Assembly (NCBI GenBank): GCA_008017315.1
Contig: SSHE01000006.1
Span: 1-49,264 of the forward strand
Direction of reading: 5' to 3'
Source of the DNA: Acinetobacter sp.
Lineage (GTDB): Bacteria; Pseudomonadota; Gammaproteobacteria; Pseudomonadales; Moraxellaceae
DNA length: 49,264 nt
Positions 26,057-41,586 of the stretch are shown here, in pieces. The notes under the pieces were generated by a model. It had not been told where the DNA came from and ran no database searches. It was given only the letters and a program-made list of their open reading frames with translations. Made by a program: the position numbers and the translations under genes. Position 1 is the first letter of the stretch, and each line of letters begins with the position of its first letter.

Positions 26057-26242
26057 GATCATTCATCATAAAATGATACATTCGTTATCTTGAACCATCA
26101 TCACCATTGACTTGATAAGTACGTGGTGATTTGGGCTTGATGACAAGATTTAATGGATTAGACCTCTTGCAAAACCCCATTGTTATTGCATACGTCCACA
26201 CAACTTTATACACGTTTATCCACCTTACAATACCCTTGCATT

Positions 26243-27031
26243 ATGACTAAACAATTCGCTGTTGTTGGCAATCCGATTGCCCATTCTCGTTCGCCCGAAC
26301 TGCATCATGCCTTTGCCAAAAAAACAGGGATAGATTTAAACTATACAAAAATCCTCGCCCCCTTAGATGACTTCAAGCAAACCGTTCAAGATTTTTTTGC
26401 AGCTGGCGGTAGCGGTCTAAATATTACCGTACCGTTTAAAGAACAGGCTTTTGCAATGTGTGACCAACTCACCGAACGTGCCACAATCGCCAAAGCCGTC
26501 AATACCTTATGGATGCAAGATGGTCAATTGTATGGTGATAATACCGATGGTCAGGGTTTGGTCGCTGCTATTCAAGCCTTGGATTGGCATCTACAAGACA
26601 GCCGCATTTTAATTTTGGGGGCTGGTGGGGCAACTCGTGGGGTCATCTATCCACTGGTACAGGCAGGAGCGAAACACATCACCATTGCCAATCGCACATA
26701 CAGTAAAGCCGAACAATTGATTCAGGATCTACAATCCTCTACCCCATCGTGCCAATTAACAGCAATTTCACTTGAACAGCTTGCAGGTGAGTTTGACATC
26801 ATGATCAATGCCACTTCCGCCAGCTTATCAGGAGATGCTGTAATTTTACCTCCAACTTTGACCTTTAAATATGCTTATGAAATGGCGTATGGCAAGCCCT
26901 CTCATTTTTTAGATGAAGCAAAACAACGCAATGTCGCCTATAGCGATGGTTATGGCATGTTGGTTGGACAGGCAATAGAGGCATTTTATCTATGGAATGG
27001 CAAACGTCCAGCACTCAAAGATTTTCTATAA
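26243..27031 (+). CDS. aroE: Shikimate dehydrogenase (NADP+)
   Basis: MTKQFAVVGNPIAHSRSPELHHAFA; NITVPFKEQAF; ILGAGGATRGVIYPL. Confidence 0.96.
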   Translation: MTKQFAVVGNPIAHSRSPELHHAFAKKTGIDLNYTKILAPLDDFKQTVQDFFAAGGSGLNITVPFKEQAFAMCDQLTERATIAKAVNTLWMQDGQLYGDNTDGQGLVAAIQALDWHLQDSRILILGAGGATRGVIYPLVQAGAKHITIANRTYSKAEQLIQDLQSSTPSCQLTAISLEQLAGEFDIMINATSASLSGDAVILPPTLTFKYAYEMAYGKPSHFLDEAKQRNVAYSDGYGMLVGQAIEAFYLWNGKRPALKDFL

Positions 27032-27066
27032 AAAAATCGCCCATTCTTCTATATGGGCGATGTTTT
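27031..27066. terminator. Bidirectional rho-independent terminator between aroE and the converging split lipoprotein gene
   Basis: AAAAAATCGCCCAT-tcttctat-ATGGGCGATGTTTTT; 9-bp perfect stem flanked by A and T tracts. Confidence 0.85.
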
Positions 27067-27088: not shown

Positions 27089-29295
27089 TTATTGAATAAA
27101 CAATTGATACACTTGTGTATAACTCGTTTCATTAAACCAGTATCTCTCCTCTGTATCGAATCGCTTCAATTTGTCCGTATTGATCTTTTGCGTTTTCAGA
27201 TCATCAATTGCAAGGTCAGCTAATACTTTGACATACTCCAGAAAACGCTGGTCAAATTTGACATTTTTCTGCCCTGTTTCACGTTTTTCATTTTCTGTTT
27301 CCAGATACAGGTACAATGCCGCAAAAATTTGTGCATCCGTTTTGCCTTGTTTGCGTAATTGCTGAAATTGCTGTGCCAATTTTTTATGCGTTTGCTGTGT
27401 CGATAAAATATCCCAAACACTGTCGGCAATACTTTCATCATAGTAATACCATTCATCAGGTGATTGATCATATTCTGCTTTTTCTTTGGCAGTCAGTGGT
27501 AACCCATGTTCATCTGCATAATAAATCGCTGTCCAGCGTGCTGTATCGTTTAAATCCTTCAAATCAAATTCGCTTTCTTCAACATCTTCACCCTCAAGTA
27601 AATACGCATAACGATACAAAGTGGCATACGCATCGAGGAATTTGACATTTTGCTGCGTCAAGCTTTCAGCAATTTTTTCATAACGCTGGGTTTTGCTCCA
27701 CGATTGACTCTCTGTTTTGCTGCTCACGTCTGGCTCATCACGGGTGAGTTCATCCCATGCGTTACCAAGGCTCAAAATCGCATTTTCATTGGACGCTTGC
27801 TTAAAAGATACCGCATTTTTCAATTGCTGCTGGTCGATTTTTGCCGAACCATAACTATGAAAATTCACTGTGCCTAGCACTGTCATATTTTTAATGCCCA
27901 AGTCAGCAAAATCACCGATTTTAAAATTCATTTCCGAACGTACCAAACGTCCTTTAGCATCGAGTACAAGGTCGTTATAAAATGAACTCTGCTCAAAAAG
28001 TGCAATATCTTTAAAGGATTCGCTTGCAGCTTTTACCAGTTGTGCATACGCCTCAGGCTGCTGGGCAACAATTTTTTGCATCTGTTCAGCCATCACCAAT
28101 CGGTCGGTTTGATAGGCTGCAAATTTATTCAAAATTTCATCTTGCTGTTTTTGTAATGCTTGACTTGCAATAAGGTTGTCTTCTATCTCTTTTAGATAAT
28201 CTGCTGTTTCTACATCACCAGATTCCGCATCCTGTTCTTCTGTGCATAAGCATCTGTTTCGTCTTCAGAATAGGCTGGTTCAAAGGCTTTCATCGCTGTG
28301 TAATAACGTTCAAGTGCAGCATCCATTTTTTCTGCTGGCTGTGCCATTGTCGCATCCGCTTTTCCTGACACGCCTTCTGCTGTAAACATTTTACCCAATT
28401 GGCTCACATCACCAGCCGCCAATTGTTCCGCTTGTGGCAACACAGTTTTCAGATATTTTTTATTCACGTACAAAAACAACGATGATTGTGCCATGATTTC
28501 GCTATAATTCGCCACATACCGAATACGCTGCACACCACCTATTTGTTTGTCCTGTGCGGTCAATGACAATACCTGATACGCCTTTTCAGGGGCTAATGCG
28601 GAGTTCACCAGCATAAACTCACGAATGACTTCAAGCAAAGGTTTACTATTAAAGTTAGATTTTTTGAGCAATTCAGTATAATCAAAAACCACATATTGCC
28701 CATCATATTTCGGATCTGTCAGTAATGGTGAAATTGCCGAAATATCCGCATAGGCTTTGTTATTCCCCAAATCCAGTGCCAACGGAACAGCAATCCACCC
28801 TTGTACATTTTTGGCATGATAACCCAGTTTTGGATTTAGGCTAATTTGCCCATGTTTCAAATCCACCACCCCATCGACAGCAATATAATAACGCTCCAGA
28901 AATGCCTTAATCAGGCTATTTATTTTATCGCTTGTTGGTTTACTCCAAATACTATCGGTCTTTTTCTTGGTCGCTTCCGCAATACCTTCTTGCAACCATT
29001 GCTGCTGTATAGCTGTAAGTTGGTGTGGCTGTGCAAGCAATTGATTTAATACTTGCTGACGTTGTTGGATTTCTTGTGGTGCAATCGAGGTGTGTTGTGA
29101 TTTTTTTGCCTCATCCATTTCCATTTTAAAGGTCATTCTGCCCTCAAAGGCATAACTCTGTTTAGACATTAATTTTTCATAACCTTGATAAACCTGCTGG
29201 TTTAAAGGTAAATGCTTTGCACTTTGCATTGGGTGGCTCGCACAGCCCAACATCGCAGATGTTAAAATAGATAAAGCGAACAGTTTATATTTCAT
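27089..29295 (-). pseudogene. Large (~735 aa) lipoprotein gene split by an apparent 1-nt frameshift near 28238-28245
   Basis: 5' part (28210-29295) has lipobox SAMLGCAS. The 3' ORF (27089-28132) has only a TTG 'start', and its frame is open upstream into the 5' ORF: ...SEDETDAYA(Q/H)-EEQDAESGDVETADYLKEIEDNLIASQALQKQQDEILNKFAAYQTDRL... Confidence 0.8.
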
Positions 29296-29501: not shown

Positions 29502-31322
29502 ATGCCAACTTATAAAGCCCCCTTACGTGATGTTCGCTTCTTGATGAATGAAGTGTTTGACTATCCTGCCCACTTTAAAACACTGTCAAATGGCGAACTT
29601 GCCGACCCTGATACTGTCGATATGATTCTTGACGGTGCTGCAGATTTTTGTGAAAATGTCCTTGCACCGCTGAACCAATCTGGTGATGACGAAGGCTGTA
29701 CTTTTGACAATGGTGATGTCAAAACACCAAAAGGCTTTAAAGAAGCATATGACCAATTTATTCAAGGTGGCTGGCAAGGTCTGTCATATCCTGAAGAGTT
29801 TGGTGGTCAAAACTTACCGCAATCGTTGAACTTGATCAAAGCTGAGATGATGGGTACAGCAAACTGGTCATTCCAAATGTATCCAGGTTTAAGTATTGGC
29901 TGTATGAATACCATTTTGCAGTTCGGTACTGAAGAGCAAAAGAATACCTATATGCCACACCTCGTTGCAGGAACGTGGTCAGGTACAATGTGCTTAACTG
30001 AGCCACAATGTGGTACAGACTTAGGTCAAGTCAAAACTAAAGCTGAACCAAATGCTGACGGTAGTTACAACATTTCAGGCACAAAGATCTTCATCTCTGC
30101 GGGTGAACATGATCTAACTGAAAACATTATCCATATCGTACTTGCGCGTCTACCTGATGCACCTGCGGGTACACGTGGTATTTCATTATTTATCGTTCCA
30201 AAATTCATGCCGACTGCTGACGGCGGTATTGGTGAGCGTAATCCTGTGACTTGTGGTTCGATTGAGCACAAGATGGGGATTCGTGCTTCTGCAACTGCGG
30301 TGCTTAACTTTGAAGAAGCAACAGGTTATTTAATTGGTGAAGTAAACAAAGGCTTACATGCCATGTTTACCTTCATGAACACTGCTCGTATTGGCACAGC
30401 GATTCAAGGTGTTTCTCACGCGGAACTTTCATTCCAAGGTGCATTACCGTATGCCAAAGACCGTATGTCTATGCGTGCTTTGTCTGGTAAAAAAGAGCCT
30501 GAAAAAGTTGCAGATGCAATCATTCACCATGCCGATGTTCGTCGTATGCTTTTAACCCAAAAAGCAATCGCCGAAGGCGGTCGTTCTATGATTTATTATG
30601 CGGCACAACTTGCTGATAAAATGACCGATGCGTTAATGGCAGGTGATGACGCAAAATATGAAGAATATGACGACAAACTTGGCTTCTACACGCCGATTTT
30701 GAAAGGCTTCTTAACCGAAATGGGTCTTGAAGCAGCCAATCATGGTATGCAAGTGTACGGTGGTCACGGTTATATCAAAGAATGGGGCATGGAACAAATC
30801 GTTCGTGATGCTCGCATCTCTACCTTATACGAAGGTACAACTGGAATTCAAGCCCTTGACTTGTTAGGTCGTAAAGTTCTACTGTCTTCTAAAGGTAAAG
30901 TGGTTGCTAGCTACACGACGGAAATTTTGAAATTCTGTGGACAACATGCACGTAACAAATACATGCGTCGTTTCATCTGGGATTTAACCAAAGTCTGCAC
31001 ACAATGGGGTATCCTCACCACACGTATCATGCTCACCGCTCGTAAAGACCGTGACATCGTTTCAAGTGCTGCAGTAGATTACTTGATGTTCTCAGGCTAT
31101 GCGATGATGGCATACTTCTGGGCACAACAAGCCGCAGTTGCTTCTGAAAAACTTGAAAAAGGCGGTAAAGAAGAAGCTGATTTCTATAAAGCCAAAATCA
31201 AAGTGGCTGATTTCTACTTCGACCGTTTATTACCACGTGCACAAGGTCATGCCGAAGCAATGGTGAATCCATCTCGTGGCTTAACCAGCTTAAAAGCAGA
31301 ACACTTTAGCTTTGATTACTAA
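29502..31322 (+). CDS. Acyl-CoA dehydrogenase
   Basis: 606 aa; MCLTEPQCGTDLGQVKTKA, YGGHGYIKEWGMEQIVRDARISTLYEGTTGIQALDLLGRK. Confidence 0.95.
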   Translation: MPTYKAPLRDVRFLMNEVFDYPAHFKTLSNGELADPDTVDMILDGAADFCENVLAPLNQSGDDEGCTFDNGDVKTPKGFKEAYDQFIQGGWQGLSYPEEFGGQNLPQSLNLIKAEMMGTANWSFQMYPGLSIGCMNTILQFGTEEQKNTYMPHLVAGTWSGTMCLTEPQCGTDLGQVKTKAEPNADGSYNISGTKIFISAGEHDLTENIIHIVLARLPDAPAGTRGISLFIVPKFMPTADGGIGERNPVTCGSIEHKMGIRASATAVLNFEEATGYLIGEVNKGLHAMFTFMNTARIGTAIQGVSHAELSFQGALPYAKDRMSMRALSGKKEPEKVADAIIHHADVRRMLLTQKAIAEGGRSMIYYAAQLADKMTDALMAGDDAKYEEYDDKLGFYTPILKGFLTEMGLEAANHGMQVYGGHGYIKEWGMEQIVRDARISTLYEGTTGIQALDLLGRKVLLSSKGKVVASYTTEILKFCGQHARNKYMRRFIWDLTKVCTQWGILTTRIMLTARKDRDIVSSAAVDYLMFSGYAMMAYFWAQQAAVASEKLEKGGKEEADFYKAKIKVADFYFDRLLPRAQGHAEAMVNPSRGLTSLKAEHFSFDY

Positions 31323-36383: not shown

Positions 36384-36701
36384 GTGATTAGAGTACATCA
36401 CGTGAAGCTTGAAATTGTCACTTTACCCGAGTTTGAAGAATGGCTTACCAACATTAAAGATGGCGTAACACGTCGTCGTTTAGGTCGTCGTCTTGAACGT
36501 GCTGAAAACGGCAATCTTGGAGATGTTGAGCCAGTTGGTGAGGGTGTTAGCGAAATGCGTGAACACTTTGGACAAGGTTGGCGTATGTATTTTGTACGGC
36601 ATGGTCAGACCATCATCATCATGCTCGGCGGTGGAGACAAATCCACACAGCAACGTGATATTACCAAGGCAATTGCATTATCTAAAACTCTTGAGGATTA
36701 A
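36384..36701 (+). CDS. RelE/HigB-family addiction module toxin
   Basis: VKLEIVTLPEFEEWLTNIKD...RRLGRRLERAENGNLGDVEPVGEGVSEMREHFGQGWRMYFVRHGQTIIIMLGGGDKSTQQRDI; actual start may be GTG at 36402. Confidence 0.9.
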   Translation: MIRVHHVKLEIVTLPEFEEWLTNIKDGVTRRRLGRRLERAENGNLGDVEPVGEGVSEMREHFGQGWRMYFVRHGQTIIIMLGGGDKSTQQRDITKAIALSKTLED

Positions 36702-36704
36702 GCC

Positions 36705-37001
36705 ATGGTTAAAATTTCCGAACTCAAACGCTTCGATATGGCTGAATACTTAGAAGATGAGCAAGCCATTACCGAATACTTAACTATTGTGCTTGGGGAA
36801 AACGACCCTGTTGCGTTCATTGCTGCATTAAATACCGTTGCTCGTGCTAGAGGTATGAGCCAAATTGCCAAAGATGCAGGGGTCAATCGTGAATCGTTGT
36901 ATCGTTATTTGAATGGCAGTGCAAGCCCACACTTTGACACCATTAGCCGTGTACTCAATGCCTTAGGCGTGCAGTTGGCCATTGTACCTAAGACTGGGTA
37001 A
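36705..37001 (+). CDS. HTH antitoxin of the addiction module (HigA-like)
   Basis: 98 aa; LGENDPVAFIAALNTVARARGMSQIAKDAGVNRESLYRYLNGSASPHFDTISRVLNALGVQL; 3 bp after the toxin. Confidence 0.92.
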   Translation: MVKISELKRFDMAEYLEDEQAITEYLTIVLGENDPVAFIAALNTVARARGMSQIAKDAGVNRESLYRYLNGSASPHFDTISRVLNALGVQLAIVPKTG

Positions 37002-38704: not shown

Positions 38705-40405
38705 TTATCGTACTGCGGTTTTGGTACTACCATAATGGGTACGTTTGTCTAATTCGTGTTGTGGCGGAATTTTGGGTCGTAAGCTTTGCTCATATTGACG
38801 TTGTTCAGGGGGCAATGCAAATTGCTGTGCCAATGCTTTGAATGTTGTTTGAAATGCTGCCAAAGTCCATTGACCAAATAAAGTATGTCCACCTTCGTAT
38901 GCCTGTTGCTGATATTCTTCATAGGTCGTGATATAGCCCATATAATCATTGCAATAGGATGCCAATAGCACTTTTGATGGTGCTGCAAGTTGCTGGCTCA
39001 CAGTTGCGACTAAACGCTTTCCTGCGGTCGTGGTAATTTCTCCTGCACAACACAGCAAAGCAATCTCGCCAATACGTAACAGTTGAATCGGGACAATATG
39101 TGCCACCATCTCACTCTCCTGAATTGCTCCTGCCTTATATTGACGGTTCATTTCACCGATCAATGGATCAAGAATACTGGGCATAATGTCCAGCTTTTGC
39201 CCCAACAAGCATTTATCACCAGCTTCTAATACAATCGGCTTTACCCCTTGCGAAGCATACAATGCTTGATAATATTGGTACTGTGGATGTTGTGGATTTA
39301 AACGCTGTTTCCGCACACGATCCGATAACAGTTGCATCGCCAAAGTAATCGGTTTCGCTGCACCCACTCCATCAACAGGTGTCCCTGCAAAAAATGCTGC
39401 CCCATGACACGCCCGACTGGTTCTCGCTGCCTGACCATTTGAAAATTCTGGATCAATATCAATATTACTTAAATCAATATATTGGCAAATGGCATCCAGT
39501 TGTTCAGCATGGATATTTTTGGATTGATATAACGCGGTAAAGGCCAAATCGCTTTGATAGCATCCATTTTGCTGGGCATATTGATATTCGGCTTCACCCG
39601 TGATTTTTTGGCGTTTTTTCAGTTGATTTTTACCATGAAAATGCGGTGATACATCACCAGCAGTCGATTGTGCAAAAATCGCCACAGGCTGAACAATCCC
39701 TTGCTCACGCAACTGTTGTTCCGAAAAAGCCGCCGCATAGCCTTTATTGTCACCATCGTACTGATGGAGTTGATTGCCCAAACAGGTTGCATGTACACCA
39801 AATAAGGACATGAACGCATGTAATTTGCCATCACGATAAAATCCCAATACGTTCATTTGTCTATCGAGAGCAAGATGCGTTTCGTGTTCACTTCTTGGCT
39901 GTACATCTGGATTACGATTATAGGATTTTAGCGAGCGATTCCATGCCACTGGGATCTGTGCATCAAAATGTGCTGCACCCAAGCGGATTTCCGTCGGTTG
40001 TGCCGAGTCATGAGCATGTAAAATACTGTGTACAATCGCCTTCACAATCGCTTCGACGTGTTCAGGGACAAAACCAGGGGTTGGCATATTGTATAAGGCT
40101 TCATAGCTGCACCCTCCCAAAGATGAATGGGTATGGGTTGCCATCAATACCAATTTTTCAGGGTGAAACCATGTATATTGACTTAAGCGTTGAATCGTGC
40201 GTTCACGCATGGCATAGGTGATACATCCCAAATCCAGACAACACAGTATTAAATCCTGCTGCTCACCTTTTTGAATCACAATACTACGTGCATAAAGTGA
40301 TGTACGAAATGATTTGGCACGGTGCGACCACTGCCCATAACCAAACATGGCTAAATTTTTTGCCTGTATTTCAATAGGTTGTTTATCCCAACCAATATTT
40401 AGCAT
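38705..40405 (-). CDS. Neutral/alkaline non-lysosomal ceramidase-like hydrolase
   Basis: 566 aa; AMFGYGQWSHRA, ATHTHSSLGGCSYE, FGVHATCLGNQLHQYDGDNKGYAAAF resemble neutral ceramidase motifs. No signal peptide seen. Confidence 0.78.
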   Translation of the reverse strand: MLNIGWDKQPIEIQAKNLAMFGYGQWSHRAKSFRTSLYARSIVIQKGEQQDLILCCLDLGCITYAMRERTIQRLSQYTWFHPEKLVLMATHTHSSLGGCSYEALYNMPTPGFVPEHVEAIVKAIVHSILHAHDSAQPTEIRLGAAHFDAQIPVAWNRSLKSYNRNPDVQPRSEHETHLALDRQMNVLGFYRDGKLHAFMSLFGVHATCLGNQLHQYDGDNKGYAAAFSEQQLREQGIVQPVAIFAQSTAGDVSPHFHGKNQLKKRQKITGEAEYQYAQQNGCYQSDLAFTALYQSKNIHAEQLDAICQYIDLSNIDIDPEFSNGQAARTSRACHGAAFFAGTPVDGVGAAKPITLAMQLLSDRVRKQRLNPQHPQYQYYQALYASQGVKPIVLEAGDKCLLGQKLDIMPSILDPLIGEMNRQYKAGAIQESEMVAHIVPIQLLRIGEIALLCCAGEITTTAGKRLVATVSQQLAAPSKVLLASYCNDYMGYITTYEEYQQQAYEGGHTLFGQWTLAAFQTTFKALAQQFALPPEQRQYEQSLRPKIPPQHELDKRTHYGSTKTAVR

Positions 40406-40518
40406 CGCTATCTCCTTTTCACCATGTATCGCTGATTTTCTGCTTGCAAGTTAAACAGATTTTGGCAAGATATCAAAAGGGGATTTTTTGCCTTTTATGG
40501 GGGGCAATTCGGACATTT

Positions 40519-41586
40519 ATGCTTAATCAATTCGAAGATTTCACTGCTGATGATGCAGTTATTCCATGTATATTGCTCAATAGTTTGATTCAGTATGCCA
40601 GTAGTCAGCATTTACCTTATCCAGCATGGTTTGCTCATACTGGCTTAAATATTGACGATATTATCCAAGGTAATATCTTGGTTTCATTCCAAACGATTCA
40701 TGATGTTTTTCTTCGTGCACAGCCTTATTTTGATCGGCAGGCATTAGGCATTCAGTTGGTCAAAGCCTCTGGTTTAGGTTCAATGGGTTTACTTGGCTTT
40801 GTCATGCAATCGAGTAAAGATATTGCCCAAGCATTCGAAGCTGGTTTACGTTTTCATCCCATTTCGGGCAGTGTCAGCAATCTACAGGTGATTTTACAAC
40901 CAGAACAGGTGATTTTAGAGATACAACCAAGATATTGCATGACGCTCACAACGGTCTTTATTGAAGAAGTCGTTGCCAGTATTATCAACTGTTTAAAGTC
41001 TTTACTGGGACAACATTATGCCCCATTACGCATTGAGTTTTCCTATACAGAACCTAACGCAATCGAGCAGTACCAGACATTTTTCCAATGTCCTTTGTAT
41101 TTTGATGCAGCAAGAACGCGCATTTATTTTTCTCGCACCTTGTTAGAGCAGACCATCCCCAGTGCCAATACTGCAAACTATCTTCAGGCCATCCAAATTT
41201 GTGAGCAACATTTAATCAACCTCACGCAACATCATTCGATACCATTTAGCCAACATATTCGCCATTATTTGGTACAACACTTGCCACGCAAAGTCACGCT
41301 ACATGAACTCACCGAACAATTCTCCCTCTCCGAACGCCAACTACGCCGCAAGTTGGCACAAGAACAAACATCCTTTCAAGCATTACGCCAAGCTGTATTA
41401 TTACAACAAGCAAAAAAATTACTTGAAAAAAATCAATCTATTGAATCTATTGGTTTGGCATTGGGGTTTAGTGATGCACGAGAATTTCGACGAGCTTTCA
41501 AACGTTGGACGAATCTTGCACCGTCACAATTCAAGCCATCATCACACATCATTCCGAAATCAACGCAACCTGCTGGACATAATTGA
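40519..41586 (+). CDS. AraC-family transcriptional regulator
   Basis: ATG at 40519 (MLNQFEDFTADD); C-terminal HTH VTLHELTEQFSLSERQLRRKLAQEQTSFQALR...SIESIGLALGFSDAREFRRAFKRWTNLAPSQFK. Confidence 0.92.
   Translation: MLNQFEDFTADDAVIPCILLNSLIQYASSQHLPYPAWFAHTGLNIDDIIQGNILVSFQTIHDVFLRAQPYFDRQALGIQLVKASGLGSMGLLGFVMQSSKDIAQAFEAGLRFHPISGSVSNLQVILQPEQVILEIQPRYCMTLTTVFIEEVVASIINCLKSLLGQHYAPLRIEFSYTEPNAIEQYQTFFQCPLYFDAARTRIYFSRTLLEQTIPSANTANYLQAIQICEQHLINLTQHHSIPFSQHIRHYLVQHLPRKVTLHELTEQFSLSERQLRRKLAQEQTSFQALRQAVLLQQAKKLLEKNQSIESIGLALGFSDAREFRRAFKRWTNLAPSQFKPSSHIIPKSTQPAGHN

Follow-up and report, generated by a model that had tools for sequence, protein, structure and literature searches.

Two adjacent open reading frames of an Acinetobacter contig as pieces of one frame-broken lipoprotein gene

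Two adjacent minus-strand open reading frames (ORFs) found in the analyzed window (i.e., the whole 49,264-nt stretch of an Acinetobacter sp. contig) are, as judged from their sequences, pieces of one lipoprotein gene, with a net one-base frame change between them. In the relatives this is one gene, in the window copy it is broken, and the 3' half shows no decay. We assign a probability of about 93% to the reading that this is one gene with a frame break of recent or artefactual origin. The locus is arranged as follows:

26180-27031, plus strand: aroE (presumably shikimate dehydrogenase), convergent neighbour, in the same place in relatives
27036-27061, minus strand: terminator-like hairpin with a T run after it, 3' of the 3' half, also usable by the convergent aroE
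27089-28132, minus strand: ORF2, the mechanically called ORF (347 aa, first usable start TTG)
27089-28264, minus strand: 3' half of the broken gene (C-terminal domain), frame open from 28264
28213-28264, minus strand: 52-nt overlap of both open frames, the site of the frame change
28210-29295, minus strand: ORF1, the 5' half of the broken gene (361 aa, ATG start)
29502-31322, plus strand: gene which we take to be acyl-CoA dehydrogenase-like, divergent neighbour, in the same place in relatives

The ORF coordinates of the preliminary description proved exact. ORF1 comprises a signal peptide, the lipobox cysteine (MLGCAS), and the N-terminal domain, and ends with the out-of-frame tail KNRMRNLVM and a stop codon at 28212-28210. 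The frame of ORF2 is related to it in the -1 direction and stays open upstream to 28264 (nearest in-frame stop at 28267), running into the end of ORF1 as had been described. The join had been placed at about 28245; this position falls within 28213-28264, but the exact point is not provable, as the linker encoded there is unconserved (relatives vary in its length and sequence) and just the 52-nt interval is certain. The hairpin (27061-27036) is the sole terminator-like site on the minus strand of the unit, and its position after ORF2 is consistent with one transcription unit, although by itself it weighs little, since the number of sites returned by the terminator scan was near the shuffled expectation.

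That the two ORFs represent one lipoprotein gene split by a frame change, as proposed in the preliminary description, was borne out by single-frame orthologues found throughout the genus. The search with ORF1 (the N-half) gave matches in 98 of 149 same-genus genomes, and all of them, with the exception of the window copy (366), had one open frame of 704-854 aa without an internal stop; matches of the C-half, found in 12 genomes, were likewise single-frame apart from the window copy. Within the closest subfamily (E-values of about 1e-56 to 1e-98) both halves matched one protein in the same genomes, and since one of them corresponds to the N-terminal and the other to the C-terminal half of a single-frame protein, their joining is beyond chance. 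With a profile of the full family, matches were obtained in 116 of 176 Acinetobacter genomes (a few of them through the signal peptide only), no copy being detectable in the other 60. Intact copies (about 110 single-frame homologues) have a single frame of about 700-860 aa. The full-length copies recovered with the profile were unbroken save those of the window (366+391) and of genome G115 (704+95; C1:84157-86449), in which the same gene is separately broken near the C-terminus, with the last ~80 residues in another frame. The mid-gene split was seen in the window copy only, and none of the 176 genomes shows the arrangement that would speak against a single gene, i.e., a pair of ORFs divided at a conserved boundary. 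The cysteine of the lipobox, recognized already in the preliminary description, is invariant in 21 homologues.

Outside the genus, only one weak and partial match was found among 195 genomes of the order searched, and the lipoprotein family appears to be confined to Acinetobacter in the sample examined. Searches of Pfam and NCBIfam indicated no family for this lipoprotein above the curated cut-off, the PDB sequence search likewise indicated none, and the literature search returned nothing on the gene. No relative was present in the viral contigs and plasmids searched, and thus no second copy of the allele of the window strain was found. A scan of contigs with the C-half as a single sequence gave no match, and the scan with the subfamily alignment yielded six loci, recorded under the names A. 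populi, A. puyangensis, A. qingfengensis, A. sedimenti, uncultured Acinetobacter, and a Red Sea Moraxellaceae MAG. These named records bear out Acinetobacter, which the preliminary description had assumed as the genus.

In all six of these loci the lipoprotein gene lies between the divergent acyl-CoA dehydrogenase gene and the convergent aroE. The copies of A. populi, A. puyangensis, A. qingfengensis, and A. sedimenti are homologous to the window copy in both halves (~36-50% identity) and have the lipobox cysteine and synteny in common with it, but they are uninterrupted, whereas in the window copy the linker contains the frame break. The window copy thus displays the two-half homology, the signal peptide and invariant lipobox cysteine, and the locus position of the family, yet lacks one uninterrupted reading frame, and is therefore a broken copy of a family member rather than an intact member. 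A larger Acinetobacter subfamily (~760-830 aa) is alignable over the full length with the intact close relatives and retains the invariant lipobox cysteine and a D-G-x-V motif; it differs in its distant sequence (21-30% identity over the N-half) and in a longer linker with a cysteine-bearing segment missing from the subfamily of the window.

The identity of the lipoprotein to the A. puyangensis copy (L048) is only 41-43%, compared with 72-97% for 19 other genes of the window. Together, the lipobox and this fast divergence suggest a putative envelope or surface role, and the lipoprotein may be exposed at the surface and subject to diversifying pressure. In one genome (G022, locus L055) the flanking genes lie ~390 bp apart with the lipoprotein gene absent between them, which indicates that its loss is tolerated; judging from this absence and from the C-terminal break in G115, the gene seems to have been lost repeatedly. 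Tandem pairs of the gene were observed in three genomes (G021:C1:369682-374319, G140:C1:3448984-3453876, and G153:C1:144889-149862). The pair of G021 consists of one copy from each of the two subfamilies, which suggests an old duplication followed by differential loss.

Alignment with seven close relatives placed the break in an acidic, length-variable linker between the conserved N- and C-terminal halves. This linker is predicted to be disordered, as residues 349-427 of the A. populi homologue have pLDDT values below 50 in the AlphaFold2 model. The model as a whole is mediocre to moderate (pLDDT 64, pTM 0.43), and its Foldseek comparison with the PDB gave no significant match (best E-value 0.1); for these reasons, no structure-based function is claimed.

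A linker of this kind between two halves, with the 3' one still conserved, might also be expected after a real fission into two working proteins. This reading is very unlikely, because the only start of ORF2 is a TTG located ~78 nt beyond the ORF1 stop, without a clear Shine-Dalgarno or other ribosome-binding site in the upstream region, because ORF2 and the whole 3' half lack a signal peptide although the intact members are lipoproteins, and because the two-ORF arrangement was seen in no relative. There is correspondingly little chance that the break is fixed in the species and that the two half-proteins work independently, which would constitute an early true gene fission.

The -1 frame relation and the conservation of both halves would also suit programmed -1 ribosomal frameshifting joining the two frames. 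However, in about 110 homologues the protein is read from a single frame without any shift, the site sits in the unconserved linker, and there is no X-XXY-YYZ slippery heptamer in the 52-nt overlap, in agreement with the preliminary description, which had noted the lack of such a heptamer and considered this mechanism unlikely; we regard it as extremely improbable. The preliminary description had left room for a phase variant. Phase-variable switching of a surface lipoprotein between on and off could draw on the much faster divergence of this protein than of its neighbours, as surface proteins often diverge in this way, but this option did not hold: no tandem repeats were found at the break, and the longest run in the overlap is AAA, so the site offers no sequence prone to frequent slippage, which leaves such a switch hardly credible. 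Given the lack of a repeat tract and of a slippery site, and the shift-free relatives, both mechanisms were rejected.

The age of the break within one gene was approached by a leave-one-out retention count on four intact representatives and the window copy, in which the positions invariant in the other four sequences were scored. The N-half of the window copy keeps 67 of 74 such positions (intact copies 74-89%), and its 3' half keeps 52 of 60 (87%; intact copies 81-90%). Moreover, the pairwise identity of the window C-half to the relatives (35-42%) does not fall below that found between relatives of different lineages (31-39%). The 3' half is therefore undecayed, which means that the break is either very recent or not present in the organism.

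The frame change that splits the gene would thus be a real mutation or a sequencing or assembly error; in the case of an error, the organism has an intact gene and only the draft contig carries the change. We consider a mutation somewhat the more probable of the two, the error accounting for rather less than half of the best explanation. The window comes from a fragmented draft assembly (116 contigs, 2.05 Mb, 91% complete), which favours an error, and the undecayed 3' half would fit an error equally well. On the other hand, homopolymers in the interval do not exceed 3 nt, the genus can do without the gene, which makes a real mutation plausible, and in a census of 202 genes (79,700 aa, about 239 kb of coding sequence), which set 1.39 Mb of the 2.05 Mb genome against a part of that of A. 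puyangensis, the window gene was the sole frameshift. Indel errors are therefore generally rare in this draft, which mildly favours a real mutation. Four census genes were flagged with internal stops; by our reading two of them are effects of N-terminal extension, and the other two, otherwise well-conserved genes of the genome of the window, have premature stops: a Tgt-like gene (L192:5506-6636) is interrupted by a TGA with ~29 codons still to come, and a sulfatase-like membrane gene (L082:12172-13794) has an in-frame TAG as its codon 144. These may be either real nonsense mutations or base errors, and the latter would be compatible with an error in the lipoprotein gene.

The intact gene would encode an outer-membrane-type lipoprotein about 735 aa long, belonging to a genus-restricted, fast-evolving Acinetobacter family, and the interdomain linker of the window copy carries a net one-base frame change of very recent date. 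We infer that the organism itself, and not just the assembly, has the change and that function is lost. If the change is real, the gene would presumably be one transcription unit with its product cut off at the interdomain linker, giving at most a truncated, lipid-anchored lipoprotein composed of the N-terminal domain and 9-10 out-of-frame residues, which could work alone as a lipoprotein. The C-terminal half would not be made, since ORF2 has neither a good start nor an export signal, and this would make the gene a fresh pseudogene or null allele. In its single net frame change and startless 3' half the window copy resembles ordinary frameshift pseudogenes of draft genomes; compared with them there is nothing unusual about it, except that it bears as yet no sign of decay. 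Whichever of the two it is, a fresh mutation or an artefact of assembly, the case is otherwise ordinary. The annotation changes from two hypothetical genes to a single broken one from a lipoprotein family that has no name and is itself mildly interesting, as it diverges fast at a fixed locus, is sometimes tandem and often absent, and is represented by no curated model.

Elsewhere in the window, two small adjacent plus-strand ORFs (105 and 98 aa; 36384-37001) lie in a gene-poor 1.2-kb gap and look, by eye, like a RelE/HigB-type toxin and an HTH antitoxin. Further along, the minus-strand gene at 38705-40405 encodes a neutral/alkaline ceramidase domain (Pfam PF04734, E-value 3.5e-89) and is adjoined by an AraC-type regulator gene (40444-41586, plus strand).
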